Shown: piece by piece, positions 996-46,042 of the stretch | Numbering within the stretch: position 1 is the stretch's first letter | Layout of the letters: each line of letters opens with the position of its first letter | Assembly: GCF_900167915.1 (NCBI RefSeq) | Contig: NZ_FUYM01000020.1 | Span: 1 to 47,722 of the forward strand | Direction of reading: 5' to 3' | Source of the DNA: Rhizorhabdus histidinilytica | GTDB lineage: Bacteria > Pseudomonadota > Alphaproteobacteria > Sphingomonadales > Sphingomonadaceae | Length of the DNA stretch: 47,722 nt | Notes under the pieces: generated by a model | The model's database searches: none | Told to the model about the DNA's origin: nothing | Seen by the model: the letters and a program-made list of their open reading frames with translations, nothing else | Translations under genes and position numbers: made by a program

Positions 996-1015
996 AGTCC
1001 CCGGTCATAGGGACA
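996..1015. promoter_or_regulatory. Palindromic operator 1 (AGTCCC-N8-GGGACA)
   Basis: A 20-base dyad whose centre lies about 78 bases before the VOC gene start at 1084. It is one of 14 copies in the window and presumably controls the VOC-SDR unit 1084-2546. It is the only notable feature in the gene-free stretch 893-1083. Confidence 0.75.
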
Positions 1016-1083
1016 GGTCATTCGCATTCGATCGCGGTAACCTGCCCGCATATCCTGCATGCTGAGAATTTGGGAGCTTTCCT

Positions 1084-1716
1084 ATGATATCGACCACGCC
1101 GACCGAGGGCAAAACCGCGGCTGCGGCCAAGAGAAGCGCGAAGCTGACGCCGGTGATGCTCAACCACGCGGCCTGGGTCACCCACGACGTGGAGGCGACA
1201 GCCGACTTCTTCATGCGCATCATGGGCATGGAATTGGCCAGCACGGTCTATGACGACCGGGTGCCGTCGACCGGCGACGATTTTCCCTATTTCCACATCT
1301 TCTTCCGGATGCAGGACGGATCGACCATCGCCTTTTTCGAATGCATCGGCTTGCCCGAGCGGCCCGAGGCCAGCCACGCCGCCTACACCGTTTTCGACCA
1401 TATAGCGCTCGAAGCGAAGGACCGTGACGAAGTCGATCAGTGGGCCGAGTGGCTGAAGGAGAACGGGATTGATATCGTTGGGCCGGTCGACCACAAGGGA
1501 TTGATATATAGCATCTATTTCTTCGATCCCAACGGTATCCGGATGGAGATCACCACGCCGCTCGATGCCGACTGGAACCGGCATACCGAACAGGGCCTGG
1601 CCGATCTTCGCGCGTGGATCTCCACCAAGAACGAAGCTGCGGCGAATAATGCCGATGTCGGCGAGGCGCTGCTCAGGCTCATCCGTGGGCAGCGAAAGCG
1701 ATACGACAAGGCCTAA
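1084..1716 (+). CDS. VOC (glyoxalase/extradiol dioxygenase superfamily) protein 1
   Basis: A 210-residue vicinal-oxygen-chelate protein made of two beta-alpha-beta-beta-beta modules. The putative metal ligands are all present: H28 in NHAAWV, E86 in AFFE, H106 in DHIAL and E155 in RMEIT. This His/Glu/His/Glu set resembles glyoxalase I more than the 2-His-1-Glu set of two-domain extradiol dioxygenases, which are also about 300 residues long. Family membership is clear but the reaction is not; metal-dependent isomerisation, hydration or ring cleavage are all possible. A GGGAG precedes the ATG. It is followed after 71 bases by an SDR gene. It is very similar to the protein at 17687-18271, with identical spacing of all four ligands, so the two are recent paralogues or subunits for related substrates. 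Confidence 0.85.
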   Translation: MISTTPTEGKTAAAAKRSAKLTPVMLNHAAWVTHDVEATADFFMRIMGMELASTVYDDRVPSTGDDFPYFHIFFRMQDGSTIAFFECIGLPERPEASHAAYTVFDHIALEAKDRDEVDQWAEWLKENGIDIVGPVDHKGLIYSIYFFDPNGIRMEITTPLDADWNRHTEQGLADLRAWISTKNEAAANNADVGEALLRLIRGQRKRYDKA

Positions 1717-1787
1717 CGGACCGAGGGCCGCGCGCCATCCAGGCCCCGGCGGGACCGATCGGCACCAGGGATTTCAAGGAGAAGATG

Positions 1788-2546
1788 ATGCGTGGACTGA
1801 GTGGCAAATCCTATATCGTGACCGGCGGCGGCAGCGGCGTCGGCAGGGCGACGGCGCGCCGGCTGGCGGAGTTCGGCTGCAAGGTTACCATCGCCGATCG
1901 TTCGGAGGACACCGCGCGGGAGGCGGTCGAGATGATCACCAAGGCGGGCGGCGTGGCGCACGCCATTCGCACCGACCTGTCGCTGGAGAACGAGGTCAAG
2001 GCGATGGTCGACAGCGCGGTGAACAGCTATGGGCGGCTCGATGGCGCGGTCAACGCGGCCGGCACGCCCCAGCGCGGCAAGGCCACCCACGAACTGTCGA
2101 CCGAGGAATGGGATTTCTGCCACGGCGTGAACCTGCGGGGCCTGTTCTTCTGCAACAAATATGAAATTCTCGCGATGCTGCAGACCGGGGGCGGCGCCAT
2201 CGTCAACATCGCCTCGACGCTGTCGTCGGTCGCGGTCGCCAACAGCGCGGAATATAGTGCGAGCAAAGCCGGCGTCATGGGCCTCGTGCGCGGCGCGGCG
2301 CTCGACTACGGCACCAAGGGCATTCGTGTGAACGCGGTTTTGCCGGGCCTGATCGACACGCCGATGCTGCAGACCGCGCTCAACGGCGATCCCAATCTCG
2401 AAGAGGCGCTGTACGCCGCCTGCCCGATGAAGCGGATGTCCCAGCCCGAGGAACAGGCGTCGGCCGCCTGCTTCCTTCTGTCCGACGAGGCCAGCTTCAT
2501 CACGGGTGCGGGCCTGCCGGTAGACGGTGGAATGCTGGCCATTTGA
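1788..2546 (+). CDS. Short-chain dehydrogenase/reductase 1
   Basis: A classical SDR of 252 residues that oxidises or reduces a hydroxyl/keto group with NAD(H). Counting from the preferred start, the cofactor motif TGGGSGVG is at residues 12-19, an Asp after the second strand (D37) favours NAD(H), NAAG is at 89-92, and the catalytic set is N115, S143, Y156 and K160. Two adjacent ATGs exist at 1785 and 1788. I chose 1788 because AAGGAGA at 1776-1782 then has normal spacing. It follows the VOC gene and probably shares its transcript. The end faces the EthD-like gene tail to tail, with a hairpin at 2562-2592. The substrate is unknown. Confidence 0.88.
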   Translation: MRGLSGKSYIVTGGGSGVGRATARRLAEFGCKVTIADRSEDTAREAVEMITKAGGVAHAIRTDLSLENEVKAMVDSAVNSYGRLDGAVNAAGTPQRGKATHELSTEEWDFCHGVNLRGLFFCNKYEILAMLQTGGGAIVNIASTLSSVAVANSAEYSASKAGVMGLVRGAALDYGTKGIRVNAVLPGLIDTPMLQTALNGDPNLEEALYAACPMKRMSQPEEQASAACFLLSDEASFITGAGLPVDGGMLAI

Positions 2547-2561
2547 TCGACCGAAACCGGA

Positions 2562-2592
2562 GGTCGGGGCGGCGCATGCCACTGCCCCGGCC
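2562..2592. terminator. Hairpin between convergent genes
   Basis: The arms GGTCGGGGC (2562-2570) and GCCCCGGCC (2584-2592) pair over nine positions with one G-T wobble and a 13-base loop, between the SDR and EthD-like stop codons. No clear U-tract follows, so a terminator role is inferred from position. Confidence 0.4.
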
Positions 2593-2606
2593 TTCACGGC
2601 GTCGCG

Positions 2607-3290: not shown

Positions 3291-3330
3291 GGTTCATCCT
3301 TGCTTGGTTGGGACCGGTGTCAGGAGGCTC

Positions 3331-3359: not shown

Positions 3360-3366
3360 AAGTTCA

Positions 3367-5769: not shown

Positions 5770-5868
5770 CCTCTTCCTCCTGCTTGTCGTTATTTCGCTC
5801 CGGCATGGGTCGGTCGGACCGAAGTTCGGAGCGATCGGCAGAGCTTTAAGGACGGGTCCCCACGCCGC

Positions 5869-5888
5869 ACTCCCCGCCGACGGGGACC
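5869..5888. promoter_or_regulatory. Palindromic operator 2 (ACTCCC-N8-GGGACC)
   Basis: A copy of the island's palindrome with one core mismatch (CTCCC in the left arm), about 110 bases before the TonB receptor 1 start at 5769. It lies in the 221-base gap between the receptor start and the GST stop. Confidence 0.62.
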
Positions 5889-8416: not shown

Positions 8417-8537
8417 GACCATCTCCCAGTCAAATGCACGTCAGCCGCCACATTATTGTAGCCGCCTAAAAGCCGTAAATTCCGCTCTTGCCGAAGCGAC
8501 TATGCCGGCTGCGATAGCATCGCCGGGCCGTTGGCAA

Positions 8538-8557
8538 AGTCCCCATTCTCAGGGACA
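8538..8557. promoter_or_regulatory. Palindromic operator 3 (AGTCCC-N8-GGGACA)
   Basis: A copy of the island's palindrome in the gap between the P450 start (8416) and the flavoprotein stop (8565). It presumably controls the P450-ferredoxin-GST unit. Confidence 0.75.
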
Positions 8558-14204: not shown

Positions 14205-14255
14205 AGCCTGTCGGATCGCTTTCTATCGGCATGGGCCTCACCCATATTGAGCATG

Positions 14256-15944
14256 CTATACCCGTATGTCCCGCGCCATGGGGACAGGTTCCCGGCGGGC
14301 TTCGACGAACCTGATCGACACCGCGTCGCGGGCGGCGAGATAGCCGAAGACCAGGCTTCGGCCGATCGCCATGCCGCTGTTATAGCCGCAACCCATCTCG
14401 ATCCGCGCGGCGGCGTTACCGATCGCGTAGAGCCCCGGAACGGCTCGATCGGCCATGTCGATCACCTGTCCCGCCGCGCCGGTCTTCAACCCCGCCGACG
14501 CCAGCCCCGTTCCAACCCGACCGAGCCGGATAGCGTAGTAAGGCGGCGCCGTGAGCGGCCCCAGATTGGGATTGGGCAACCGGCTGTCGCCCCATCCGTT
14601 GCTCCACGGTTTCGATCCTCGCGCGAAGTCCGGATCGACGCCCTCGGCCGCATTCGCGTTGAAACGCCCGATCGTCGCCGCCAATCCCGCGGCATCGATG
14701 CCGGCCAGCGCAGCCAGTTCCTCGATCGAATCGGCGACCATTGCCATGCCCTCGGGCAGCGGATCCTCGGGTGCGATGGTGCCGATCGAATATTTGCTCT
14801 TGTAGGTCTGGTCGAAGACGAACCAGGCTGGCCAGTTCGGAAAGCGCTGACGATGGCCGTCGAACGCATAGGCGGTGCTGCTGTAGGTGTGGAAAAAGGA
14901 CTCGTCGCCGAAACGCCGCCCCTCGGCATTGACCATAACGCAATGCGGCAGCCCCATGATCATCATGCGGTACAGCGGACGACCGCCCCAGCTTTCCCCG
15001 GGAATGTGGATACCGACATGCCGCGAGCAGCCCTGCGGCAAGGTCGTCGCGGTCTTGGCGCGAAACTGCGACGCCAGCCGGAAATGATCGCCGGTAATCG
15101 TGGGCGGGGTGAGGCTGTACATGTCCCTGATGAACTCGTGCGCCTCGACGAGTTCGGGCGACCAGTCATAGGCCCCGGTCGCGAGGATCACGGCGTCGGC
15201 GCGAACCCGCCGCTCGCGATCGGGGCCGCCGACGATCAGGCCCTCGACCCGATCTTCGCCGATCAGGCGCAGCGCGGGCGAGGCGGTCCACATATCGACG
15301 CCGCGTTCGGCCGCCATGTGGACGAGATTGGCGATCAGCCCCGATCCCATGCACCGTTCGCCACGCCCGGCCCTGTCCGCTTTCCGACGCGCGATCCCGT
15401 CGGGATCGACCGCCGCGCGGGTCAATTCGGCATTGGTCAGCAGGCTGCCGCCATGCTGGGTCGTCATCGTGCCCTGGCCGACCGTCGTCCGCTCGGCCCA
15501 GGCCCCGAGCAGCGTCGCCGGGAACGGCAAGGGTTCGAGATATCGCCCATCGGCTTTCGAGCCGGGCGCGTCGGGGAAATAATAATCGGCGAAGCCGTCG
15601 ATCGGGCTCAGCCCGAGACCGAGACCGATCAGATACGCGATCGCCTCGCTGCCGCGCTCGACATAGGCGCGGCGATTCTCGACGCTGCCCATCCCCGCTG
15701 AAAGAAAATCCATATAGGCCAGGGCGTCCGCGACCGAATCGGCGGCGTCGCCCTGCGGCTGAAGCGGATTGGGCGCGACCCAGATCTGGCCCCCGGTGAG
15801 CGCCGTGACGCCGCCGAGCTTGTCGTCCTTTTCAACAACCAGGACGCGCGCGCCACGCTCCGCGGCGACCACCGCTGCGGCAAGTCCCCCAGCGCCCGAT
15901 CCGACGCAGACGATGTCGTAGCTATCGTCCCAATCCGGCATCAT
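14256..15944 (-). CDS. FAD-dependent dehydrogenase B (FAD-binding fumarate-reductase/KstD superfamily)
   Basis: A 562-residue flavoprotein with the Rossmann motif G15-S-G-A-G-G20, LGGVTALTGG shortly after, and a C-terminal FAD segment GLYAIGNAA. The segment where KstD enzymes carry Y-P-G-x-G is Y521-NSGMAIG here, so the active site differs from flavoproteins A and C. It probably oxidises or reduces a different intermediate. ATGATG at 15944 follows GGGAGCGG. It is a single-gene unit with its own operator at 16007-16026. Its last codons contain the operator of the next operon (14267-14286), so coding sequence and regulatory site overlap there. Confidence 0.85.
   Translation of the reverse strand: MMPDWDDSYDIVCVGSGAGGLAAAVVAAERGARVLVVEKDDKLGGVTALTGGQIWVAPNPLQPQGDAADSVADALAYMDFLSAGMGSVENRRAYVERGSEAIAYLIGLGLGLSPIDGFADYYFPDAPGSKADGRYLEPLPFPATLLGAWAERTTVGQGTMTTQHGGSLLTNAELTRAAVDPDGIARRKADRAGRGERCMGSGLIANLVHMAAERGVDMWTASPALRLIGEDRVEGLIVGGPDRERRVRADAVILATGAYDWSPELVEAHEFIRDMYSLTPPTITGDHFRLASQFRAKTATTLPQGCSRHVGIHIPGESWGGRPLYRMMIMGLPHCVMVNAEGRRFGDESFFHTYSSTAYAFDGHRQRFPNWPAWFVFDQTYKSKYSIGTIAPEDPLPEGMAMVADSIEELAALAGIDAAGLAATIGRFNANAAEGVDPDFARGSKPWSNGWGDSRLPNPNLGPLTAPPYYAIRLGRVGTGLASAGLKTGAAGQVIDMADRAVPGLYAIGNAAARIEMGCGYNSGMAIGRSLVFGYLAARDAVSIRFVEARREPVPMARDIRV
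14267..14286. promoter_or_regulatory. Palindromic operator 4 (TGTCCC-N8-GGGACA)
   Basis: A perfect consensus copy, centred about 72 bases before the SDR start at 14204. It is embedded in the last codons of flavoprotein B. It presumably drives the SDR-synthetase-crotonase-hydrolase-flavoprotein operon. Confidence 0.78.
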
Positions 15945-16006
15945 CCGCTCCCATTGCGCATCACTTTGGACGCACGTGCCGTTCTAGAGATGTCGACGGC
16001 TGCCAA

Positions 16007-16026
16007 TGTCCCCTGAAGGCGGGACC
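16007..16026. promoter_or_regulatory. Palindromic operator 5 (TGTCCC-N8-GGGACC)
   Basis: A copy about 72 bases before flavoprotein B (start 15944). It lies in the gap before the stop of the MarR-type gene. Confidence 0.75.
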
Positions 16027-16036: not shown

Positions 16037-16570
16037 TTACGCCTCGTCGGCGATCGAGCGCCAGTCCTTGTCGGATCCGAACAGCTCGTTCGATCGGTCC
16101 ACGAGCAGGTCCATGATCCTGCGCAAAGCCGCGCCGTCCTCGGGCGAAAGCTCCGACAACAGCATCCGCTCGCTCGCATATAGCAGCGGCACGACCTGAT
16201 TATAGATATCATGTCCGCGCTTGCTGAGGCTGAGCGCCACGCGTCGGCGGTCCGCGGTGTCGATCCGCCGGAGGACGAGCTTCTTGTTGCTCAGCTGATC
16301 GATCGCGCGACTGACGCTGACCTGATCCATCGCGGTCAGCTCCGCCAGCGCCTTGGCCGACAGCGGATAATGGGTTCCGAGGATCGCGACGATTCGCCAG
16401 TCAGCGACCGACAGGCCGAACAGTTCGCCATACATGCGCTCGAGCATGCGGCTGATCCGGTTCGCCACGACGCTGAACGCGTGCGGCAGCGAATGCTCTG
16501 GCGCGAAGCACGCTGGCGGGCGCGGATCGTGCGGCGCGTCGTCGCTTTCCTTGGCGCCCAGTCGGCTCAT
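16037..16570 (-). CDS. MarR-family transcriptional regulator
   Basis: A 177-residue winged-helix regulator. Residues about 30-130 carry the MarR fold: LSVADWRIVAILG, the helix-turn-helix SAKALAELTAMDQVSVSRAIDQL, and the wing DTADRRRVALSLSKRG. Such proteins usually repress and are released by aromatic or acyl-CoA ligands. ATG 16570 is preferred to an in-frame TTG at 16624. It is transcribed away from the LuxR-type gene, with a 210-base AT-richer region between them that has its own dyads. It ends 92 bases before flavoprotein B on the same strand. It could set the expression of the LuxR-type regulator, but this is inferred from layout only. Confidence 0.9.
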   Translation of the reverse strand: MSRLGAKESDDAPHDPRPPACFAPEHSLPHAFSVVANRISRMLERMYGELFGLSVADWRIVAILGTHYPLSAKALAELTAMDQVSVSRAIDQLSNKKLVLRRIDTADRRRVALSLSKRGHDIYNQVVPLLYASERMLLSELSPEDGAALRRIMDLLVDRSNELFGSDKDWRSIADEA

Positions 16571-16707
16571 CGAAGAATTAGCTCGCTCCACAGGTGATTC
16601 ACCCGCCCTTTGTCTCAGTCGCAACGCAAGAGTCGTGATGCGCAGAAGCGCACCGATCCCCTTAGCGTATCAGGCTTCGCACATCTCGCAACCGTCCCGA
16701 CAAATTA

Positions 16708-16738
16708 ATTACATATTGCAATAGATACGTTTTGTAAT
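16708..16738. promoter_or_regulatory. AT-rich dyads between the two regulator genes
   Basis: Two nested symmetries lie in the divergent MarR/LuxR gap (16571-16780): a perfect 10-base palindrome TATTGCAATA at 16714-16723, and ATTACA (16708-16713) with TGTAAT (16733-16738). The stretch is much richer in A and T than the flanking DNA. It is a good candidate for the promoters and MarR operator. No full copy of the GTCCC/GGGAC palindrome was seen here. Confidence 0.45.
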
Positions 16739-16780
16739 CATATTGCCGACTAACAAGACAACAAGCGAGGAGGGTGTGGA

Positions 16781-17560
16781 ATGGCTACCGTGCTGGCTTA
16801 CAGGGCTGCGGAGGCTGACGATTATGCGGAGGCATGGATGCCCGGCCTGTCCGATCTCGTCGAAGTCATAGGCCTCGAAGAATTCGGCAATCAGATGCTC
16901 GCTTTTCTCGATCGCGTCGTGGGCGCCGATCACTGCACCATCTATCAGCTCAGCAATTATGATCTGGTCGAAGTCGGCTCGGCGGGCATCGCCACGATTC
17001 CCGAAGCCTATTTGAGCTCCTATGAGGTCAAGCGCCGCTTTCGTCAGCTCGGGACGTCCGGATCGCGAGTCGACACCTACCGGCTTTCGAGCGCGCTCGA
17101 TTGCAGCATCCTGCCGGCCGTCCAGCACCAGGGCATCATGGTTCTCGGCAGCAAGCTCGGCTCGCCTTACTGCATCCGCATATTGCGCACGTCGCAGCGC
17201 CACGAAGCGACCGAGGCCCAGTTGGGCCGCCTGCGCGAAGCCGCCGACGTCCTCATCTCGCTGGCGGCGCGGCATCAGAATCTCTTCCTGTCGAAGCCGA
17301 CCTCGTCTTCGGCGCTGACGTCGCTCGTCCAGATCCAGGAGCGCATTCTCAGCACCAAGAGCCTGTCGCGCCGCGAAGGCGAGGTCTGTGCGCGCATCCT
17401 GTACGGCTATTCGTCCTGCGGCATCGCGCTCGATCTCGGGATCGGCAAGGAAAGCGTGATGACCTACCGCAAGCGCGCTTACCAGCATCTCGGGATCGGC
17501 AGCCAGCGCGAACTGCTGCTCTGGTATCTCGAGCAGGTGCCCGAGACGTTGAATAGCTGA
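16781..17560 (+). CDS. LuxR-family transcriptional regulator (candidate island master regulator)
   Basis: A 259-residue regulator. Residues about 195-250 form a LuxR-type helix-turn-helix: LSRREGEVCARILYGYSS, then the recognition helix around KESVMTYRKRAYQHLGI (223-239). The N-terminal 170 residues form an alpha/beta sensor-like region (DHCTIYQL near 51-58, later GSPYCIRILR) that I cannot assign. It does not show an obvious receiver-domain phosphorylation site, and no LuxI-type synthase is present in the window. GAGGAGGG precedes the ATG. LuxR-type dimers bind 18-20-base palindromes. The 20-base palindrome found upstream of most of the island's units is thus its most likely target, though this is inference. 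A small-molecule inducer from the pathway would fit. Confidence 0.9.
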   Translation: MATVLAYRAAEADDYAEAWMPGLSDLVEVIGLEEFGNQMLAFLDRVVGADHCTIYQLSNYDLVEVGSAGIATIPEAYLSSYEVKRRFRQLGTSGSRVDTYRLSSALDCSILPAVQHQGIMVLGSKLGSPYCIRILRTSQRHEATEAQLGRLREAADVLISLAARHQNLFLSKPTSSSALTSLVQIQERILSTKSLSRREGEVCARILYGYSSCGIALDLGIGKESVMTYRKRAYQHLGIGSQRELLLWYLEQVPETLNS

Positions 17561-17601: not shown

Positions 17602-17621
17602 AGTCCCGTTGTTCGGGGACA
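17602..17621. promoter_or_regulatory. Palindromic operator 6 (AGTCCC-N8-GGGACA)
   Basis: A copy about 75 bases before VOC protein 2 (17687). Distance and arm sequences match operator 1 in front of VOC protein 1. Confidence 0.77.
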
Positions 17622-17686
17622 TTAACGACCGGCTGCCGCGCCTACACCGCGATCTAGATCGAGAATCTGAATCTCCGGAGTTGTAA

Positions 17687-21667: not shown

Positions 21668-21723
21668 TGAGCTCTCCCGAGCGTTATCTATGCTTCCGCG
21701 ATAGCGGGCTCACTCCCCCGCCT

Positions 21724-21743
21724 CGTCCCTCCACCGGGGGACG
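21724..21743. promoter_or_regulatory. Palindromic operator 7a (CGTCCC-N8-GGGACG)
   Basis: A copy with fully symmetric arms, about 66 bases before quinohemoprotein dehydrogenase 1 (start 21667). It shares the divergent gap with operator 7b. Confidence 0.75.
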
Positions 21744-21761: not shown

Positions 21762-21781
21762 TGTCCCCGCTCGTTGGGACC
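21762..21781. promoter_or_regulatory. Palindromic operator 7b (TGTCCC-N8-GGGACC)
   Basis: The second copy in the same gap, about 84 bases before the P450 start at 21856. Its centre is 38 bases from that of operator 7a, so each divergent gene has its own site. Confidence 0.77.
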
Positions 21782-21855
21782 GACATTGGACGTGGTGTCT
21801 CTAAGGCTGAGGAGACAAGGCTTGCGCACAGCGTGCGAGACAAGGAAGGATCGCC

Positions 21856-23166: not shown

Positions 23167-24345
23167 TCACACCTCGATCAGGCCGCGCTCGACCAGCCAT
23201 GCCTGGGTGAGCGCACTCACCTCACGCAGATGCTCGGGCTGCCCGGCATAATAATGGGTGGCGCCCTTCATGATCTTGAAAGTCTTGTCAGCGCTGGCCG
23301 CCGCGTCGAAGATCCGGCGGGCATGGGGTTGGGGTACCGCGTCGTCGGCTGTATTCTCGATCGCGAGCAGCGGGACACTGATCCGCGCAGCGCATTTGAT
23401 GCCGTCGGCATTGCTGTCCTCGACCGACCATTGTGACAGCCAGGCGCGCAGCGTCGAAAAGCGCCCAAGCCCGACCGGACCGCTGTTCACGGTTTCGGGA
23501 TTGCCGAGATAGCACCAACCGATTTTGCGATCGTTGGGATCCAGCGCGCCGTCCAGGAAGCGCGGATCGGCGAGCGTGCGGTGCGTAATGAAGCCGCGCT
23601 CCACCTCGCCCGTGCCCTTTGCTCGCAGCATGGCCAGAGTCTCCTTCGCGGTCGCGGTGATCTTGCGCATCCGCGCCAGTTGGGCCGCACGATAGCGCGT
23701 GATGAACTCCGCCGAATATGGCGGCTTATTGGGATTTGCAGGGTCGTAGATGTCGAGTTCAGGATCGCGATCGTCGGGATTGAGCTCGTCGCGCACCGAG
23801 GGATCGATGATGTCGAGCAACAGCTGCGCGCGCGAAATATGCGCCGCCTGGAAGATCACCGCATCCGCCGGGATCAGCCCGGCTCCTACGATGTCGACCG
23901 GGTCGCCCGCGGGGGTCTGCGTGATGGTCGGCCGTTCGGCCTGCGATTGGTAGAACAACGAGAGCGAGCCGCCGCCCGACCAGCCGACGAGGACGATCTT
24001 CTCATATCCCCAGATCTCCTTGGCGTGGCGGATATAGGCGCCGAGATCCAGCAGGACATTTTCCAGGATCCCGGCGGTGTCGTTGCGGGCGTAGCGGCTG
24101 CCGGCGCACAGCACATGCGCGCCCAATCGCGCCGCTTCGCGCGGCACGGGCAGCAGCTGCAAGGTCGACGCCGGGTGCATGAACACCAGCAGCGTCTTGG
24201 ACGGCCGGCCCCGCGGACGGATCAGTACGCCCTCGAGATTGATGACGCCCTGATTTCCCGAAAAGCCATAGGTCTCGACGAATTTAGTCGTCTCGCGATA
24301 GCCGATATGCACCCATTCGAAGTCGAGATCCGGATCATATTGCAT
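23167..24345 (-). CDS. Alpha/beta-hydrolase, about 390 residues
   Basis: A 392-residue alpha/beta-hydrolase of the longer type. The nucleophile S123 is in GWSGGG, the acid is in ENTADDAVPQPHA and the histidine in KGATHYY. A helical insertion separates the core strands (about 150-260). An in-frame start at 24528 would overlap leuD and the operator. ATG 24345 begins the recognisable domain and is preferred, although its ribosome-binding site is weak. It lies downstream of the LeuCD operon but has its own operator at 24431-24450. Ester, thioester or C-C bond hydrolysis cannot be told apart here. Confidence 0.82.
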   Translation of the reverse strand: MQYDPDLDFEWVHIGYRETTKFVETYGFSGNQGVINLEGVLIRPRGRPSKTLLVFMHPASTLQLLPVPREAARLGAHVLCAGSRYARNDTAGILENVLLDLGAYIRHAKEIWGYEKIVLVGWSGGGSLSLFYQSQAERPTITQTPAGDPVDIVGAGLIPADAVIFQAAHISRAQLLLDIIDPSVRDELNPDDRDPELDIYDPANPNKPPYSAEFITRYRAAQLARMRKITATAKETLAMLRAKGTGEVERGFITHRTLADPRFLDGALDPNDRKIGWCYLGNPETVNSGPVGLGRFSTLRAWLSQWSVEDSNADGIKCAARISVPLLAIENTADDAVPQPHARRIFDAAASADKTFKIMKGATHYYAGQPEHLREVSALTQAWLVERGLIEV

Positions 24346-24430: not shown

Positions 24431-24450
24431 TGTCCCCACCGGCTGGGACG
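24431..24450. promoter_or_regulatory. Palindromic operator 8 (TGTCCC-N8-GGGACG)
   Basis: A copy about 95 bases before the hydrolase start at 24345, between it and the leuD stop. It suggests the hydrolase has a promoter separate from the operon upstream. Confidence 0.75.
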
Positions 24451-24467: not shown

Positions 24468-25094
24468 CTAGGAAGACGGAACATCGAGCGGGATATCTGG
24501 CGCTATGAGCTGGCTTGCCCGTTCCCAACGCTCGATCTGCGGGAGGAAGGCGAGGCTGCCGCCGATCTCGTCAATGCCGTTAAGCAATGCATCCTTCTGC
24601 TGGGCGTCGATCTCGAAATCGACGATCTCGCCATTCGCGCGAGCGATGGTCTGCGTCGGCAGGTCGACCCGCATCCGGCACCGCGACGGGTCAGCCGCAT
24701 CGTCGAGCAGTTGATCGACGAGCGCGCGGTCTAGCACGATCGGCAGGATGAAATTCTTGAAGCAATTATTGTGGAAGATATCGGCGAAGCTCGGCGCGAT
24801 CACGCAGGTGATGCCGAAATCGCGCAACGCCCATGGCGCATGCTCCCGGCTGGAGCCGCTGCCGAAATTGTCGAGCGCGATGAGGATGCCGGCGCGGCGC
24901 CACGGGTCGCGATTGAGAATGAAGTCCGGCCGCTCGGCCCCCTGCTCGTCATAGCGCAATCCGGAGAACAGCTTCGCTCCAAGACCGCTGCGGCTGATCG
25001 TCTTGAGATGCTCGCCCGCCAGAATTTTGTCAGTGTCGACATTCGCCAGCGGCAGCGGCGCGGCCGGCGCAGTTATCGATGTGAAGCCGGCCAT
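24468..25094 (-). CDS. leuD: 3-isopropylmalate dehydratase small subunit-like protein (LeuD)
   Basis: A 208-residue aconitase swivel-domain protein. It is recognisable from NVDTDKILAGEHLKT near the N terminus and NFGSGSSREHAPWAL around residue 80, the loop that sets substrate choice in the family. It forms the active enzyme with the LeuC-like subunit, whose stop overlaps its ATG by one base (TGATG). In leucine synthesis LeuCD isomerises isopropylmalate. The family also hydrates citraconate to citramalate. Placement after a CoA-transferase and an HMG-CoA-lyase-like gene argues for a catabolic role here, although a housekeeping role cannot be excluded. Confidence 0.9.
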   Translation of the reverse strand: MAGFTSITAPAAPLPLANVDTDKILAGEHLKTISRSGLGAKLFSGLRYDEQGAERPDFILNRDPWRRAGILIALDNFGSGSSREHAPWALRDFGITCVIAPSFADIFHNNCFKNFILPIVLDRALVDQLLDDAADPSRCRMRVDLPTQTIARANGEIVDFEIDAQQKDALLNGIDEIGGSLAFLPQIERWERASQLIAPDIPLDVPSS

Positions 25095-26503
25095 CAGCCG
25101 AAACGCCTGACATCGACGATGTGCCCGGCCACGGCGGCGGCGGCGGCCATTGCCGGCGACATAAGATGCGTCCGACCGCCCGGCCCCTGCCGGCTCTCGA
25201 AATTACGGTTCGAGGTGGAGGCGCAGCGTTCGCCCGGCTTCAGCCGATCGGGGTTCATCCCCAAGCACATCGAGCAACCGGCGTCCCGCCATTCGAAGCC
25301 GGCCGCCTTGAATATCAGGTCCAATCCTTCGGCTTCCGCCTGCGCCTTGATCGCGCCCGAGCCCGGCACGACCAGCGCGCGCACACCGCTTGCCACATGC
25401 CCATCGCCTATGGTCGCCGCCGCCGCGCGGAGATCCTCGATGCGGCTGTTGGTGCAGCTGCCGATGAACACCACATCGATCGGCAGACCCGCGAGGGGGG
25501 TTCCGGGTTCCAGCGCCATGTATTTCAACATCTGGCGCGCCTGGCCCGCCGCGGCGGAATCCGGCATCGCTTCGGGATCGGGCACCCGATCGGCGATGGT
25601 CACGACCGCTTCGGGGTTTGTGCCCCAGGTTACCATCGGCGCGATCCCGGTCGCATCGATATCGATGACCTTGTCGTAGCTGGCGCCCGGATCGGACCGC
25701 AATGCGCGCCAGCTCGCCTTCGCGGTCTCGAACGCCTCTCCAGCGGGAACCAGCGGGCGCCCCTGCAGGTAGGCGAACGTGGTGTCGTCCGGCGCTATCA
25801 GTCCGGCGCGCGCGCCCGCCTCGATCGACATATTACACACCGTCATGCGCCCGGCCATGTCGAGCGCCTCAATACCCTCGCCGGCATATTCGATGACATA
25901 TCCGGTCGCGCCCGCAGTCCCGATCCGGCCGATGATTGCAAGGATCAGATCCTTGGCGGTTATTCCGGCGGGCAACCTGCCATTGACGCGCACCAGCATG
26001 TTCCGCGCCTGCTTCTGGATCAGCGTCTGAGTCGCCAGCACATGCTCGACCTCCGACGTACCGATCCCGAAGGCCAGCGCGCCGAACGCGCCATGGGTCG
26101 AGGTATGGCTATCGCCGCAGACGATCGTCAGGCCGGGAAGGGTTAACCCCAGATCGGGTCCGATGACATGGACGATGCCCTGCGCACGGCCTCGCAGCGG
26201 CACATAGGGTATGCCGAATTCCGCGACGTTACGCTCCAGGGTCTCAACCTGGATGCGGCTGTCGGCATCGGCGATCGGCAGGTGTCTGTTTTCGGTCGGC
26301 ACATTGTGATCGGCGACCGCGATCGTGCCGCCCGGACGGTGGACACGTCGCCCGGCAAGGCGCAACCCTTCGAATGCCTGCGGGCTCGTGACCTCGTTCA
26401 GCAGGTGCCGATCGATATAGAGCAGCGCGTTGCCGCCGGCGAGCGTAGCGACGACATGGGCGTCCCAGATCTTCTGGAAGATGGTGCGCGGCGCATCGGC
26501 CAT
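25094..26503 (-). CDS. leuC: 3-isopropylmalate dehydratase large subunit-like protein (LeuC)
   Basis: A 469-residue aconitase-family subunit of the bacterial LeuC type. The three iron-sulfur cysteines are C350 (GSCTNS), C410 and C413 (CSMC). The segment [18 protein letters not shown] is fully conserved, and the protein reads like E. coli LeuC along its length. ATG 26503 overlaps the upstream stop by one base. The long in-frame extension to 26989 runs through the lyase gene in another frame and is not real. Together with LeuD it should add or remove water on a hydroxy-dicarboxylic acid, such as isopropylmalate or citramalate/citraconate. Confidence 0.92.
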
Positions 26504-27426
26504 CAGCAGTGACCGGCCCGCTGCTCGGCTGCCGTGATCGCATCGCGAACGCGCCCACCCGACAATGCACCCGGCAAAGCCGCACCGTCGCGCGCGATCG
26601 GGATCAGCGCATCGACATCGACGCCGGTGGAGATCCCCATCGCCTCGAACATCCAGACCACGTCCTCGGTCGAAACGTTGCCGGTCGCGCCGGGCGCGAA
26701 CGGGCAGCCGCCCAGGCCCGCGAAGGAGGCATCGATCGTGGCGACGCCAGCCTGCCAGGCCGCCATTACGTTGGCAAGACCCAGGCCATAGGTATCGTGC
26801 CCGTGATAGGCCCATGCGCCGGTCTGCGGATAGCGCTGCTGCGCGGTCTGCAGAAGCGCGAACACCCGGTCGGGCGTCACCCGGCCAGTCGTGTCGCAGG
26901 GGCAGATCTCGGCGTCGGGCTTGATGTCGACCAGCGCGTCGAGCAGCGCGAAGGTCGCCGCGGAATCTACCGGACCATCGAACGGGCAATCGAATGCCGT
27001 GGCAAGGTTGAGGCGTATCTTCGTGCCGGTGGGCAGCGACGATATGATACGGCCATATTCCGCGACTGACTCCATCGGCGTCCGGCGCACATTGTTGAAA
27101 TTATGCTTTTCCGACACCGACAGCACGAACGCCAGATGGCGCGCGCCAGCCGCGAGCGCGCGTTCGGCATGCTTCAGATTGGGCACCAGCACCTGCGCAT
27201 CCATGCCCGGCAGAGCCTGCGCGGCCGCGAGCACGGTGCCGGCGTCGGCAAGCTGCGGGACGGCGATATCGCTGACGAACGCGGTGACTTCCATCCGTCG
27301 CAGCCCGGCGGCGTAGAGTCGCTCGACGAAGGCGATCTTGGTGGCGGTCGGGATGTCGGGCCCGATCGGCTGGAAGCCGTCGCGCGGCCCGACCTCCACG
27401 ATCGATGCGCGGCGCCGTTCGCTCAC
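26503..27426 (-). CDS. HMG-CoA lyase-like DRE-TIM enzyme
   Basis: A 307-residue TIM-barrel lyase. VGPRDG carries R15 and D16, CDTTGR carries D178, HGHD carries the metal ligands H208 and H210, and the catalytic loop [12 protein letters not shown] carries C241 and N250. The family cleaves 3-hydroxy-3-methyl acyl-CoAs such as HMG-CoA to acetyl-CoA plus a keto acid. A GTG start at 27426 overlaps the CoA-transferase stop by four bases. With a CoA-transferase before it and LeuCD after it, citramalyl-CoA (giving acetyl-CoA and pyruvate) or a longer homologue is a plausible substrate. That assignment is inference. Confidence 0.9.
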
Positions 27427-28655
27427 TTTACCACTCCATGTTGCTTCAAGGCTGCAATGTCCTCGGGAGCGAAGCCGGCCATGGCCAGAAGCTCCTCGCT
27501 ATGCTGGCCGATGTCCGGCCCGGTCCAACGGATTGTGCCTGGCGCCTCGGGCATATGCGGTACAACACCGGTATGCAGCACGGTCCCCAAGGCCGGATCC
27601 TCGACCTCACGGACCATGCCGCGAAAACGATATTGCGCGTCGTCGGCAGCATCGGCGGCAGTATAGGCCTTGGAGCTCGGAATGTCCGCCTGCTCCAGCT
27701 TCTCCTGCAACTCTGCCGCGCTATATTGCCGCGTCCAGCGAGCGATCAGCTCGTCGAGCTCGGCGCTGTTGGCGACCCGCTGCCGGTTGCCGATATATTT
27801 GGGATCGCGGGCGAGTTCAGGCTGGCCGAGCAATTCGGCCAGCCTGGCGAACAACGGCTCGGAATTGGCCGCGATCAGCATGAAACCGCCATCGGCGGTG
27901 GGATAGGCATTCGAGGGGGCCGCGGTGGCAATCCCGCCCCCGGTGGGCTGCTTGATCTTGCCGAGCTTGCCGTATTCAGGGAGCATCGCCTCCATCATGC
28001 TGAAGACGCTCTCGGTCAGCGCGACATCTATGCTCCGCCCCTTGCGGTCGCCCGCCACACGGTCGCGCTGCCACAAAGCGCTCATGATGCCGAAGGCTGC
28101 ATAGAGCCCGGCGATCGAATCCCCGATGCTGACGCCAACCCGGACGGGCGGCAGATCATAGGTGCCCGGCGGATGATTGGTGAGGTGGCGCAGGCCGCCG
28201 ATCGCCTCGCCGATCACGCCGAAAGCTGCCTTGTCCTTCCAGGGGCCGGTCTGGCCGTAACCCGAGACGTGGGCGATGACGAGATCCGGTTTTGCTTCGC
28301 GCAGTACGGCATCGCCCAGGCCCATTTTTTCAAGCTGGCCCGGGCGGAAGTTCTCGACCAGGACGTCGCACTGCGCAATCAGGCGCAACACGATGTCGCG
28401 CGCTTCCTTCGCCTTGAGATCGAGCGCCAGGCTACGCTTGTTGCGGCCATGAATCGACCACCACAGCGACCGGCCATCGATCTGCTCCCCCCATTGCCGT
28501 ACCGGATCTCCGGCCAGCGGCTCGATCTTGATGATGTCTGCGCCTAAATCGCCCAAAATCCGGGTACAGAAGGGCGCTGCAACGAAATGGCCGATTTCCA
28601 TCACCCGGAGCCCGTCAAGCGTGGCGCAAAATAACTGACTTTCAGGTATCGACAT
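27423..28655 (-). CDS. Class III (CaiB/BaiF, Frc-type) CoA-transferase
   Basis: A 410-residue family III CoA-transferase. The catalytic aspartate is D179 in VSIGDSIAG, and the N-terminal segment GLRVMEIGHFVAAPFCTRILGD is typical. Such enzymes move CoA between carboxylic acids, commonly from succinyl-CoA to a dicarboxylate (glutarate, itaconate, citramalate, benzylsuccinate). It is the first gene of a four-gene overlapping operon with the lyase and LeuCD, so it probably activates the lyase substrate. The ATG at 28655 has a weak ribosome-binding site. The operator at 28721-28740 lies about 75 bases upstream and is shared with the divergent flavoprotein. Confidence 0.9.
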   Translation of the reverse strand: MSIPESQLFCATLDGLRVMEIGHFVAAPFCTRILGDLGADIIKIEPLAGDPVRQWGEQIDGRSLWWSIHGRNKRSLALDLKAKEARDIVLRLIAQCDVLVENFRPGQLEKMGLGDAVLREAKPDLVIAHVSGYGQTGPWKDKAAFGVIGEAIGGLRHLTNHPPGTYDLPPVRVGVSIGDSIAGLYAAFGIMSALWQRDRVAGDRKGRSIDVALTESVFSMMEAMLPEYGKLGKIKQPTGGGIATAAPSNAYPTADGGFMLIAANSEPLFARLAELLGQPELARDPKYIGNRQRVANSAELDELIARWTRQYSAAELQEKLEQADIPSSKAYTAADAADDAQYRFRGMVREVEDPALGTVLHTGVVPHMPEAPGTIRWTGPDIGQHSEELLAMAGFAPEDIAALKQHGVVK

Positions 28656-28720
28656 ATATTCGCCAAGGCCGCGCGATAAGGATGAGGAGCCGGTACATAC
28701 CGGAGGCTAACCCCGGCCTT

Positions 28721-28740
28721 GGTCCCCTGGACCGGGGACA
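28721..28740. promoter_or_regulatory. Palindromic operator 9 (GGTCCC-N8-GGGACA), shared by divergent units
   Basis: A single copy serves two directions. Its centre is about 75 bases from the CoA-transferase ATG (28655) and 78 bases from the flavoprotein GTG (28809). The near-equal distances support the GTG as the true flavoprotein start. Confidence 0.77.
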
Positions 28741-28780
28741 TAAATGCTGCCTGAAAAATGGTTGCGGTTCTACTGCTGCA

Positions 28781-28808: not shown

Positions 28809-30542
28809 GTGGCGGAAGCTATCCCTGTCAGGGACTATGATGTCGTTGTCGTCGGCTCCGGCGCGGGCGGGCTGACGGCCGCTATCGTCGCCGCGCAGCA
28901 GGGCCTCGCTACGCTGGTGGCCGAAAAAACCGAATATTTCGGCGGTACTTCGGCGATCTCCGGTGGCGGCCTGTGGATTCCTGGCAACGACCATATGGCC
29001 GGGCTGGGCCTGTCCGACAGCCGCGAGGACGCGATCCGCTATCTCAGCGCCATCACCGGGAATTATTTCGATCAGCCCAAGGCCGAGGCGTTTGTGAGAG
29101 CCGGGCCAGAAATGGTCCGATATTTGGAAGACCGCACCGAGGTGCGTTTCATGGGCGGGCTGATCCCCGATTACGAGGCCGCCCTGCCCGGCGCGTCGAC
29201 TGGACGGACGCTGCTGACGCAGAGTTTCGACGGCAAGGCGCTCGGGCCCGACTTCGAGCATCTCCGGCCCGCGCTCGACCAGCTTGGCGTCTTCGGGGGG
29301 ATGCAGATCGGCTTCGAGGATGCCGGTCACTTCATGGCGGTACTGCGATCGCCGAAATCCTTCTTCTATTCCGCTGGCAAATTCCTTCGCTACGCGTGGG
29401 ATCGGATCCGGTATGGGCGCGCGACGCGGTTGGTGAACGGCAATGCGCTCGTCGCGCGCCTGCTGCTATCGGCACGCCGCGCTGGCGTCGAACTGTGGCG
29501 CGAAACCGGCGTTGCCGGACTGATCAACGAGAGCGGCCGGATCGCCGGCGTCCGGTTGACAAGGGGCGGCGAGACGATCGAAGTCCGGGCCCGGCGTGCC
29601 GTCATCCTGGCCAGCGGCGGCTATGGCGCGAACCAGCACATGCGCCGGGAAAATATGCCGATGGCCGATGCCGGCTGGTCGCTTCAGCCGACGGGCAATT
29701 GCGGCGACGGCATCCGGCTCGGCGAGCGGGAAGGCGGCGTCTTCATCCGCGAGAATATCGACAATGGCATATGGGCGCCGATGTCGTCGATGCTGGACGC
29801 AGACGGCCGGCGGGTCATCTTCTCGCATATCATGCTCGATCGTCATCGCCCCGGCTTCATCGTGGTCGACGGTACAGGCAAGCGCTTCGTCAACGAGGGT
29901 GCCTCCTACCAGGCGTTCTGCAAGGCAATGCATGCGCGCGGTATCGAGCGCGCCTGGCTTATCGGCACCCATGCCGCGATCCGTAAACATTCGATGGGCC
30001 TAGCGAAGGCTGCGCCCCTTCCCATCGGTCGCTATCTCGCCAACGGCTATCTGAAGAAAGCCGACACGATCACGGCATTGGCGGATGTGCTCGGCCTTCC
30101 GGCCGCGACGCTGACCGCGACCGTCGGGACCTTCAACCACTATGCCGACAGCGGCGTCGATGCCGATTTCCATCGCGGCGAGGATGTATATTCGTCGGTC
30201 CAAGGCGATCCCGCCAATAAGCCGAACCCGTCCCTCGGGCCTTTGCGAGACGGTCCGTTCTACGCGATCGAATTGCGGCCCGGTGAATTGAGCAGCCTCA
30301 ACGGCCTCGAAACCGATGCCCGGGCGCAGGTCATCCGACAGGACGGTTCGGTCATCGACGGGCTTTACGCCGTCGGCGTCGATGCCAACCCGGCGTTTCG
30401 CGGCGCCTATCCGGGCGGTGGCGCCAGCCTCGGCCCGACCATGACTTTCGCCTATCTTGCGGCGCGCCACATCGCCGCCCAGCACCCCGTCGACGCCGCA
30501 GCAGGCGCGGCGGCTCCCTTACGTGAAAGGCCCGCAGCATGA
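28809..30542 (+). CDS. FAD-dependent dehydrogenase C (KstD-like)
   Basis: A 577-residue flavoprotein from GTG 28809, or 594 residues from an in-frame ATG at 28758. The shorter form is preferred because the ATG lies upstream of a TATAAT box and the extra residues add nothing to the fold. The Rossmann motif GSGAGG directly follows the start, and the C terminus has Y534-PGGGASLGP, the ketosteroid-dehydrogenase-type active-site segment also seen in flavoprotein A. It should introduce or reduce a double bond beside a carbonyl. It overlaps the GMC gene by four bases (ATGA), so the two are translationally coupled and probably act in sequence. Confidence 0.85.
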   Translation: MAEAIPVRDYDVVVVGSGAGGLTAAIVAAQQGLATLVAEKTEYFGGTSAISGGGLWIPGNDHMAGLGLSDSREDAIRYLSAITGNYFDQPKAEAFVRAGPEMVRYLEDRTEVRFMGGLIPDYEAALPGASTGRTLLTQSFDGKALGPDFEHLRPALDQLGVFGGMQIGFEDAGHFMAVLRSPKSFFYSAGKFLRYAWDRIRYGRATRLVNGNALVARLLLSARRAGVELWRETGVAGLINESGRIAGVRLTRGGETIEVRARRAVILASGGYGANQHMRRENMPMADAGWSLQPTGNCGDGIRLGEREGGVFIRENIDNGIWAPMSSMLDADGRRVIFSHIMLDRHRPGFIVVDGTGKRFVNEGASYQAFCKAMHARGIERAWLIGTHAAIRKHSMGLAKAAPLPIGRYLANGYLKKADTITALADVLGLPAATLTATVGTFNHYADSGVDADFHRGEDVYSSVQGDPANKPNPSLGPLRDGPFYAIELRPGELSSLNGLETDARAQVIRQDGSVIDGLYAVGVDANPAFRGAYPGGGASLGPTMTFAYLAARHIAAQHPVDAAAGAAAPLRERPAA

Positions 30543-32934: not shown

Positions 32935-32954
32935 CGTCCCTCCCGAGCGGGACA
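32935..32954. promoter_or_regulatory. Palindromic operator 10 (CGTCCC-N8-GGGACA)
   Basis: A copy about 85 bases before the Old Yellow Enzyme start at 33030. It marks a new transcription unit even though the genes before it run in the same direction. Confidence 0.75.
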
Positions 32955-40606: not shown

Positions 40607-40732
40607 TTCTTCTCTCCCACATTCTACGATTATCATGAAACCAGACGCCGCCCCTCGGCGTCGGATGGAGGAACAACCGAATGCCGCGCTAACTCCAACG
40701 CTGCAATGCTAGGAAGATGTCGATGCTGGAGA

Positions 40733-40752
40733 TGTCCCATTTATAAGGGACA
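40733..40752. promoter_or_regulatory. Palindromic operator 11 (TGTCCC-N8-GGGACA)
   Basis: A perfect consensus copy with an AT-rich spacer, about 136 bases before TonB receptor 2 (40606). Confidence 0.78.
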
Positions 40753-40836: not shown

Positions 40837-40856
40837 CGTCCCATTCGGTAGGGACA
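40837..40856. promoter_or_regulatory. Palindromic operator 12 (CGTCCC-N8-GGGACA)
   Basis: A copy about 67 bases before the small barrel gene at 40914, preceded by an additional TGTCCC half-site at 40830. Confidence 0.76.
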
Positions 40857-40913
40857 TGATCCGTGATCGCGCTCGCTAACTATCTCGGGCAAAATGGAGG
40901 ATGCAGAATTGCC

Positions 40914-44063: not shown

Positions 44064-44065
44064 GG

Positions 44066-44770
44066 TCAGGCCTCCACCGTCCTAACGGTCCTGAATTCGA
44101 TTTTCTTGTCATAGGGCGCGCCGCAGATGAGGCGCTTGACGTAGATTCCGGGCAGATGGATCGCGTCGGGATCGAGCGTGCCGACCGGCACGATTTCCTC
44201 GACCTCAGCGACACACAAGGGCGCTGCCGTCGCCATCACCTGGTTGAAGTTGCGCGCGGTCTTCCGGAAGATCAGATTGCCGGCTTCGTCGGCCTTCCAG
44301 CCCTTGATGAGCGCCAGGTCGGCGCGGATGCCGCGCTCCATGATGAAGACGTCGCCATCGAACTCGCGATGCTCCTTGCCGTCCGCGACCAGCGTGCCCA
44401 CCCCGGTGCGCGTGAAGAAGGCGGGAATGCCGGCGCCACCCGCACGGCACCGCTCGGCGAGGGTACCCTGCGGACAGAACTCGACCTCCAGCGAACCGTC
44501 GAGATATTGCCGGGCGAACTCCTTGTTCTCCCCGACATAGGAGGAAATCATCTTGCGGACCTGGCCGCTGCGGAGCAGCTTGCCGAGCCCGACACCGTCG
44601 ATCCCGGCGTTGTTGGACACGCAGGTCAGCTGCGTTACGCCGGAGGCGAGCACCGCGTCGATCAGCCGCTCGGGAATACCGCAGAGGCCGAAGCCGCCGA
44701 CGCTGAGCATCATGCCGTCGTGCAGGAGCCCGTCCAGGGCTTCCTCGGCGCTTGCAAAAATTCGATTCAT
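44066..44770 (-). CDS. 3-oxoacid CoA-transferase, subunit A
   Basis: A 234-residue alpha subunit. [13 protein letters not shown] near residues 25-37 is the family's glycine-rich segment, and CVSNNAG and [16 protein letters not shown] follow. ATG 44770, preceded by GAGG, is preferred to an in-frame start at 44824 that would run into the thiolase gene. It lies seven bases after the thiolase stop and two bases before subunit B, so the three genes form one transcript. Confidence 0.93.
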
Positions 44771-44777
44771 GACAACC

Positions 44778-45947
44778 TCATGCTTTGACGGGTTCGAGGA
44801 TCGAGACGGCGCTGTTGACCGCACCGCCGCCGAGATTGAGGCAGAGGCCGAGCTCGGGCGCTTCGTCGAGCTGCATGTCCCCGGTCTCGCCCAGCAACTG
44901 GCGCGCGACCATCACGTGCATCGAGACCCCGGTGGCACCGACCGGATGACCCTTGGCCTTGAGTCCGCCCGACAAATTGATCGGCAACCGCCCCTGCCGC
45001 GTGGTCTGGCCTTCGCGGACGACCGCGGTCCCCTGCCCCGGCTCCGCCAGACCCAACGCCTCGACCGACAGCAGTTCGGCAATCGTGAAGCAATCGTGGA
45101 CTTCCGCCAGGTCGAGATCGTCGACTGTGATGCCCGCCGTCTTATAGGCCTGCTGGATCGCCCGGCTGGGGCCCTCGAAATGCTCGAGACGCTTGGCCGA
45201 CAGCGGCAGATAGTCGCTGACCATCTCGGCCGCGCGGAAGCCGACGGCGCGGCTGAACCGATCGAGAACCGAACGGTGCGCGATTACCAAGGCGGCAGCG
45301 CCGTCCGAGATCAACGAGCAATCGCTGAGCTTCAGCGGCGCGGCGATCATCGGGTTGCGCTCCGATACCGTCATGCAGAAGTCGAAGTCGACCGGCTTGT
45401 GCATATGCGCCAGAGGATTGCGCATCGCATTATCGTGGTTCTTGACCGCGATGTGCGCGAGCGCCTCAGCCGGATCGCCATAGGCGGCGTCATAAGCCTG
45501 CGCGAAGCGCGCGAAGATCTGCGGGAAGGACATGCCCTGTTCTTCGGCCTGGTAGCTTGCGCCGCCGAGCGCGCTGGTCACCCCGGCGGTGTCGAGCGCC
45601 GTCATCTTCTCGGCGCCGACGACCAACGCGATGCGGCACCGCCCGCTGTTGATCGCGTCGAGCGCCGAGTAGATCGCGGCGCTGCCCGACGCGCAGGCAT
45701 TTTCGCAGCGTATCGCGGGCTTGAACCGCAGGCCGGGATCGGCATGGAGGATCATCGACGAGCAGAAGCCGTCGGGCACGAGGCCCGAATTGAAGTTGCC
45801 GAGCCAGACTCCATCGATATCGTCGCCGGTCACGCCGGCATTCACCATGGCGTCGACCGCGGCTTCGCGGATCAGGGCTTCGAGATCGAGGTCTCCGAGT
45901 TTTCCAAAGCGCGTGTGCCCCCACCCGACGATATGCGCGTCCATCAT
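44778..45947 (-). CDS. Thiolase-family acyltransferase (SCP-x/acetyl-CoA acetyltransferase type)
   Basis: A 389-residue thiolase. The nucleophilic cysteine is C85 in ENACASGS, and [10 protein letters not shown] and [14 protein letters not shown] carry the remaining active-site elements. The spacing and the HDCF motif match SCP-x-like thiolases, a group used for branched or cyclic acyl chains, rather than the NEAF-type acetoacetyl-CoA thiolases. The start is ATG 45947 or 45944, after GGAG. It heads a unit with a 3-oxoacid CoA-transferase and probably releases acetyl- or propionyl-CoA from a 3-oxoacyl-CoA. Confidence 0.9.
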
Positions 45948-46022
45948 TTTCTCCAAAGAGATGAATTCCCGCCAATGCGATCGGCAGAACGATTATCATT
46001 GCCGTGGACGGGCCATGCTTGA

Positions 46023-46042
46023 ATGCCCCTTTGGTGGGGACA
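46023..46042. promoter_or_regulatory. Palindromic operator 13 (ATGCCC-N8-GGGACA), degenerate left arm
   Basis: A single copy in the divergent thiolase/cupin gap. Its centre is about 85 bases from the thiolase ATG and 58 bases from the cupin ATG. The right arm is perfect, but the left has C in place of T in the core. Confidence 0.58.

Follow-up and report, generated by a model that had tools for sequence, protein, structure and literature searches.

What do the catabolic genes of a 47,722 bp contig of Rhizorhabdus histidinilytica share at their promoters, and which of the two regulators encoded among them reads the shared signal? The stretch analysed here (below: the window) is the entire contig C16 of a 59-contig draft genome of 5.47 Mb and makes up 0.87% of that genome. 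It carries repeated copies of the palindrome GTCCC-N8-GGGAC, which an earlier sequence-only reading had taken as the mark of one regulon. According to the present analysis of the window and of related clusters, the palindrome very probably serves as operator for the LuxR-family regulator encoded midway along the island (16781-17560), a predicted class II transcription activator of one catabolic regulon.

An exact scan of the window returns 12 copies, the number previously given for copies with all 10 core bases perfect. Two further copies are imperfect; each had been said to carry one mismatch, which holds for the copy at 5870, whereas the one at 46024 has two (TGCCC). Palindrome coordinates refer to the first base of the 18-mer and are one base above the earlier count. 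The 14 candidate operator copies are listed below with the gene or unit assigned to each and, where present, the TA dinucleotide 21 or 22 bp past the 18-mer (ORF, open reading frame).

997..1014, plus strand: exact; VOC/glyoxalase gene from 1084 and SDR gene from 1785; TA one base past the 21/22 slot
5870..5887, minus strand: one mismatch; TonB receptor 5769-3367; TA 5847-5848
8539..8556, minus strand: exact; P450-ferredoxin-GST unit; TA 8515-8516
14268..14285, minus strand: exact; SDR-acyl-CoA ligase-hydratase-hydrolase-KstD-like unit 14204-8565; TA 14245-14246
16008..16025, minus strand: exact; KstD-like flavoprotein 15944-14256; TA 15985-15986
17603..17620, plus strand: exact; VOC/glyoxalase gene from 17687; TA 17643-17644
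21725..21742, minus strand: exact; PQQ dehydrogenase 21667-19559 and MFS transporter; TA 21702-21703
21763..21780, plus strand: exact; P450 from 21856; TA 21802-21803
24432..24449, minus strand: exact; alpha/beta hydrolase, start 24345; no TA at 21/22
28722..28739, minus strand: exact; CaiB-HMGL-like-LeuC-LeuD unit 28655-24468; TA 28698-28699
32936..32953, plus strand: exact; OYE-SnoaL-FAD unit, start 33030; no TA at 21/22
40734..40751, minus strand: exact; TonB receptor-aldehyde dehydrogenase-EthD unit from 40636; TA 40710-40711
40838..40855, plus strand: exact; small ORF without Pfam match, then PQQ dehydrogenase from 41247; TA 40877-40878
46024..46041, plus strand: two mismatches; plus-strand ORF from 46090, cupin-like by eye; TA 46064-46065

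Each of the pairs 21725/21763 and 40734/40838 most plausibly represents two divergent promoters that have a single box apiece, and the copy at 28722 may additionally serve the plus-strand unit from 28758. As for the copy at 46024, its TA at 46064-46065 places it toward the plus-strand ORF at 46090 and not toward the thiolase gene. Among spacer lengths from 0 to 24, length 8 accounts for 12 copies and lengths 15 and 22 for one each; the spacer sequence is not conserved, so that the conserved part consists of the two 5-bp half-sites alone. Both properties agree with the earlier description, as does the intergenic position of 13 of the 14 copies, the exception being 14268, within the final codons of the ORF ending at 14256. 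The distance to start codons, however, had been given as 58-137 bases, and the recount yields 48-116 bp to plausible starts with one exception at 28722, where the first ATG of the plus-strand gene at 28758 is just 18 bp away (the GTG at 28809 gives 69). The claim that nearly every catabolic unit has a copy is borne out, with the thiolase/CoA-transferase unit (the adjoining copy has its TA on the opposite side) and the hydratase at 95-892, a gene close to the contig start, left uncovered.

In the whole genome the exact palindrome occurs 16 times, and 12 of these copies fall within the window (binomial P = 3.4e-22). The genome-wide total is unremarkable when compared with 11 matches for the pattern read backwards; the signal is thus the clustering of exact copies and not their total. 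When two mismatches are allowed, 46 sites are seen versus 32 expected, and hence the signal resides in near-perfect copies. A whole-genome scan had been proposed in the sequence-only reading, and it reveals that the motif is not spread across promoters: only four exact copies lie off the window, three of them inside ORFs that were taken for hisA, flgD, and primase (translations read by eye). The fourth (L147, G000:C36:446299), the sole off-window exact copy outside a gene-like ORF, is embedded in a longer palindrome and could be an element of another kind. The other genomes of the 298 from the family have 0 to 8 exact copies, versus 16 here.

The spacing between the palindrome and a predicted -10 element suggests how the box may work. 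With sites oriented toward genes, the -10-like score is highest 22 bp past the 18-mer. Counted per site in either orientation, TA is found at 21-22 bp in 11 of 14 window copies, 16 of 17 sites from genomes G017 and G162 and the Sphingobium plasmids, and 14 of 21 sites from Rhizobiales/Rhodobacterales. Counted as site-gene pairs, the values are 10/15 in the window (other offsets ≤4) and 16/23 in G017, G162, and the plasmids pTK2 and pMI1 (other offsets ≤5), followed by 14/38 rows, mostly in both orientations, for Rhizobiales/Rhodobacterales (other offsets ≤7). The maxima at other offsets exclude the overlapping slots 20 and 22. For the two divergent pairs of the window only the nearest-gene orientation was taken, and in the set of G017, G162, and plasmids sites enter with either one orientation or both, and GTCAC variants, a half-site form that occurs before P450 genes in relatives, are counted.

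The composite pattern GTCCC-N8-GKGAC-N21,22-TA occurs 9 times in the genome, all 9 in the window and each facing a gene; the reversed-pattern control gives one match per strand. Among mismatched window sites (oriented: 6 with one and 62 with two mismatches), TA is present only at 5870 and 46024, which supports the two imperfect copies of the sequence-only reading. A further variant, GTAAC-N8-GGGAC, is located upstream of marR and faces away from it in 6 of 7 relatives' loci scanned (L067, L068, L069, L070, L071, and L073), with phased TA in 6/6; four of these were first spotted by eye. The TA is likely the start of the -10 hexamer; setting it at -12 gives a box centred at about -42.5 to -43.5 and covering the -35 position. 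A box at fixed distance from the predicted -10, as for class II activators, is found in 10 of the 15 window pairs, and all nine composites lie in the window. At the sequence level, the arrangement is established as an 18-bp dyad of 5-bp half-sites followed, in 11 of 14 copies, by TA on the strand of the gene starting shortly beyond, and the same arrangement stands beside related LuxR genes in other lineages.

Two regulators, one MarR-type and one LuxR-type, are present among the ORFs scanned. Together with the most conserved genes of the island they are as follows.

16781..17560, plus strand: luxR-type gene, 259 aa; PF00196 GerE, E 3e-8; proposed binder and activator
16037..16624, minus strand: marR-type gene; PF12802/PF01047; divergent from luxR; second regulator
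23167..24345, minus strand: alpha/beta hydrolase ABH2; conserved core; 70-75% identical in G017, G162, pTK2, pMI1, and G895
24468..28655, minus strand: core block of LeuD-like protein, LeuC-like protein, HMGL-like lyase (26503-27426), and CaiB CoA-transferase

The LuxR-type protein is rare. At least 5 of 298 family genomes, source included, match at E ≤1e-20, and a class-wide search at E ≤1e-25 gives at least 1 of 385 genomes, the match being the source genome; both counts are lower bounds, with first-look candidates partly scored. Seven genomes were matched in one scan of another collection (below: the second collection). The LuxR gene, hydrolase, VOC protein, LeuCD-like proteins, CaiB, and palindromes are conserved in G017 and G162. 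The same core recurs on the Sphingobium plasmids pTK2 and pMI1, where palindromes precede luxR and the VOC gene. In all five of G017, G162, pTK2, pMI1, and G895 the palindrome precedes luxR (in G017, if the L058 start at 14441 is right), and the 35-38 kb taken around luxR contain every exact site of G017 (6) and of G162 (3). Conservation at the same promoters in related strains, on which the sequence-only reading had staked its regulon, is observed, as the motif is kept at matching promoters (hydrolase/LuxR divergon, VOC protein, CoA-transferase, and TonB receptor).

The GerE helix-turn-helix (HTH) domain (PF00196) is found in 12 of 12 aligned LuxR-type proteins. The window protein has no other Pfam match at E ≤1, and the 12 aligned members match neither an autoinducer-binding domain (up to E 1) nor a receiver domain of the NarL/FixJ type (at E ≤1); one of them matches GAF weakly (E 0.0057). 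A LuxR of the acyl-homoserine lactone (AHL) type was rejected on this domain content, i.e., no autoinducer-binding Pfam match in 12 members. The window protein and the seven second-collection proteins are identical in an HTH stretch that we take to be the recognition helix, while the N-terminal half diverges. Searching solved structures with a LuxR profile returned no match at 0.01, and the single protein gave weak or chance matches only.

A tree of 22 LuxR-type proteins contains two supported groups. The first has nine rows: the window protein, the seven second-collection proteins (Rhizobiales/Rhodobacterales), and the second LuxR of G301. The second, sphingomonad group has five rows (G017, G162, pTK2, pMI1, and G895). 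The window LuxR thus groups with Mesorhizobium/Rhodobacterales and not with the sphingomonad LuxR proteins that share its core, which suggests that the regulator or the island was horizontally transferred between orders. The neighbourhoods of 11 proteins from both groups contain 20 exact sites in 267 kb, with at least one site in 8 of 11, and six LuxR neighbourhoods outside the groups (Variovorax, two Burkholderia, Gemmobacter, Sphingobium TomTYG64, and G075) contain none in 193 kb; these tallies exclude G174, G895, and the second LuxR of G301. The same Sulfitobacter genome, G301, has a second MarR-LuxR pair (L117, G301:C8:235441-239178) with an exact palindrome about 15 kb off.

According to a scan of 396 genomes of the order, 51 have at least one composite, mostly at or below the reversed-control level. 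Three or more are found only in the source genome (9) and in G895 (3, on one contig), where the LuxR gene starts just past one composite. The G895 LuxR is almost identical to that of pMI1, and G895 is therefore not a new lineage. Eight genomes have two composites; none of the eight has a LuxR gene at E ≤1e-25, and in two of them both matches are one palindrome read both ways.

As for the regulator, which the sequence-only reading had left between the two proteins, the evidence favours LuxR and speaks against MarR as the binder. If the palindrome were instead the operator of the MarR-type protein, the latter would be a repressor freed by the substrate. Its gene adjoins luxR, orthologs 47-62% identical are present in all seven second-collection genomes with LuxR, and exact or variant palindromes lie near marR in most of those seven. 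MarR proteins bind palindromes of such size. We nevertheless regard this as unlikely: sites and LuxR are kept without a MarR ortholog genome-wide in G017 (best unlinked match 1.6e-7) and G162 (none at 1e-5), as well as in the fetched stretches of three Sphingobium-type clusters, where none is annotated in the 30.7 kb of pTK2 and pMI1 or found there by tblastn, and none is present in the fetched G895 stretch, which has the same core. Other MarR matches at E ≤1e-22 (13) in the 298 family genomes are ≤41% identical, and those genomes have 0-2 exact copies each. When the MarR protein was searched against all plasmids, none of the matches listed (60 of 253) exceeded 46% identity, pTK2 and pMI1 not being among those listed, and two MarR-like plasmid neighbourhoods (45-46% identical) have no exact palindrome in 30 kb each. 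Finally, a box on the -35 position at fixed distance to the -10 is the geometry of an activator, and the MarR-type protein is probably not the binder of the palindrome. Both proteins might act, LuxR activating at the palindrome and MarR repressing elsewhere, e.g., in the luxR-marR gap. The pair co-occurs in eight genomes, source included, and the gap (16625-16780) has no palindrome and an AT-rich dyad at about 16709-16750, noticed by eye, as a possible MarR operator. LuxR-only clusters exist, however, and this arrangement seems possible but falls short of an even chance.

Two further explanations do without a dedicated regulator. Structural or mobile repeats (repetitive extragenic palindromic-like elements or terminator stems) would also be inverted and mainly intergenic, and the off-window copy C36:446299 is inside a longer palindrome; the unconserved spacer between just two 5-bp half-sites, however, and the fixed position and strand relative to the -10 and to gene starts make this reading very improbable, and a mobile repeat was rejected on the unconserved spacer and the fixed strand and distance. 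Chance recurrence in GC-rich DNA could draw on the GC content of 64%, on the small excess at two mismatches, and on the genome-wide similarity to the backward control. In contrast, three quarters of the exact copies (12/16) fall in less than one hundredth of the genome, only spacer 8 is enriched, and the sites are conserved in relatives. Chance was rejected on spacer specificity, window clustering, and the composite (9/9 in the window), and is to be considered negligible. One dimeric regulator and one regulon, as the sequence-only reading proposed, is the favoured reading, given the share of copies in the window and their conservation at relatives' promoters.

Several observations weigh against LuxR control. 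TA at 21/22 is missing from three of the 14 copies (997, 24432, and 32936) and, in the other two site sets, from 1 site in 17 and from 7 in 21. The offset itself was defined following a 60-offset scan; sites fetched later and variant sites provide more independent checks, with related clusters not mutually independent. The window's own luxR has no preceding palindrome, and on Sphingobium AntQ-1 pl4 the core block is found without an exact palindrome in 23.7 kb. Regarding the tree, the union of the two LuxR groups is neither rejected nor shown (p-AU 0.109). The split into neighbourhoods inside and outside the groups was first drawn with the counts already seen, the tree coming later, and it overlaps by identity to the window protein (Variovorax 35%, pTK2 33%). 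The L023, L025, and L026 neighbourhoods have no exact site in the fetched stretch (the L025 and L026 contigs hold four each), and the G174 LuxR sits on a long branch apart from both groups although its neighbourhood has two exact sites in 39 kb. The window protein's group is where MarR and LuxR co-occur, and therefore the separation from MarR rests on the sphingomonad group. Three members of that group (G895, pTK2, and pMI1) hardly differ from one another, which reduces the five MarR-less clusters to about three lineages.

Under control by the LuxR-type protein, its dimer would bind the box at about -42.5 to -43.5 and respond to a pathway compound via the N-terminal domain, which matches no autoinducer-binding model. 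The bound dimer would replace the missing -35 contact and recruit RNA polymerase, with the divergent MarR-type gene as an optional second layer. Activation would turn on uptake (two TonB receptors, MFS), oxidation (P450s, PQQ dehydrogenases, KstD-like flavoproteins), and CoA-ester breakdown (CaiB, HMGL-like, LeuCD-like).

Judged by its genes, the contig is a catabolic island. Pfam scans report two TonB receptors, an MFS transporter, two P450s, a ferredoxin, two PQQ dehydrogenases with cytochrome c domain, several FAD_binding_2 flavoproteins, GMC and OYE oxidoreductases, SDRs, an acyl-CoA ligase, and hydratases, as well as CaiB, an HMGL-like lyase, LeuC/LeuD-like proteins, CoA-transferase subunits, and a thiolase. 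According to NCBIfam, 7 of 20 scanned proteins reach the curated cut-off, mostly of subfamily models; the LeuC-like protein passes the 3-isopropylmalate dehydratase model, and the KstD-like matches of the flavoproteins are below their cut-offs. From the enzyme types, an alicyclic substrate (terpenoid- or steroid-like) can be guessed; literature searches for the substrate gave no lead. LeuC, LeuD, and CaiB are conserved in other clusters, with an HMG-CoA lyase annotated there on pTK2 and pMI1. The gene order with an HMGL-like lyase between CaiB and LeuC recurs on pTK2, pMI1, and AntQ-1 pl4 as a repeated CoA-pathway block. At the right end of the contig there is a DDE transposase gene (46817-47695, minus strand); this insertion sequence may be where the assembly stopped, in which case another contig may carry more of the island.

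A broader generalisation is tentative, and we would put it at slightly less than even. An undescribed set of LuxR-type proteins, with a non-AHL sensor domain and its own operator (GTCCC-N8-GGGAC, 21-22 bp from the -10), might form a portable regulon system in three alphaproteobacterial orders. The core under its control would be constant (hydrolase, VOC protein, CaiB, HMGL-like lyase, and LeuCD-like hydratase), and different oxidation and uptake modules would have joined by gaining the same promoter box.

From sequence alone, an unnamed LuxR-type regulator is tied to a likely operator and about a dozen promoters, and the box-TA geometry is precise enough to predict transcription starts. The composite serves as a search tool, having picked out a single further genome among the 396, whose cluster is nearly the same as that of pMI1, plus its regulator, and provides a means to delimit catabolic islands whose substrate is not known. 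Once the inducer is known, activator and operator are a candidate pair for a biosensor.

Searches of open-access papers in PubMed Central (PMC) brought up no description of the operator, cluster, or regulator, as judged by titles, abstract openings, and selected passages, in line with the sequence-only reading, which knew of no described operator of such form. We regard the operator as new, the regulator group as apparently undescribed, and the mechanism as classical. The one paper that a search listed as containing both half-site strings deals with a different arrangement: the operator of CggR, which regulates glycolysis in Firmicutes, is GGGAC-27-GTCCC (PMC8579813). As far as the parts of that account consulted go, it has the same two 5-mers, in reverse order and with a 27-bp gap, and CggR is a repressor of another family. 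TeiR/TesR is a LuxR-type activator of steroid catabolism in Comamonas testosteroni (PMC6895838, PMC8700777), with TeiR reported as confined to that species (PMC6895838). The likeness to the regulator predicted here, a LuxR-type activator of a catabolic gene set, is one of description, and the portions of the TeiR/TesR accounts consulted (PMC6895838, PMC8700777) contain no GTCCC operator. EGO55_13855, a LuxR-family protein, is the suggested activator of the pdc progesterone cluster of Caenibius tardaugens (PMC12239570). Compared by description, it is also a LuxR-type gene in a sphingomonad catabolic cluster, whereas the pdc cluster is small and no operator for EGO55_13855 is described in the sections consulted (PMC12239570).

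LuxR-type proteins bind the lux box, a dyad of 20 bp whose centre usually lies at -42.5 (PMC4471428, consulted in part). Similarly to it and to class II activation by LuxR, the box of the island would be centred at about the same position as reckoned from TA. Usual lux-box sequences differ from the half-site GTCCC. Unlike lux box systems, no autoinducer-binding domain is found here, and the predicted targets are catabolic genes. In the edc estrogen cluster of Caenibius tardaugens, the repressor EdcR is associated with the palindrome TnnCnnTACnAnTnGTAnnGnnA, which overlaps the -10 box (PMC8700777). Both palindromes recur at multiple promoters within a catabolic cluster of a sphingomonad; that of EdcR, however, overlaps the -10 of a repressed promoter, in contrast to the palindrome of the island, which lies on the predicted -35 position.

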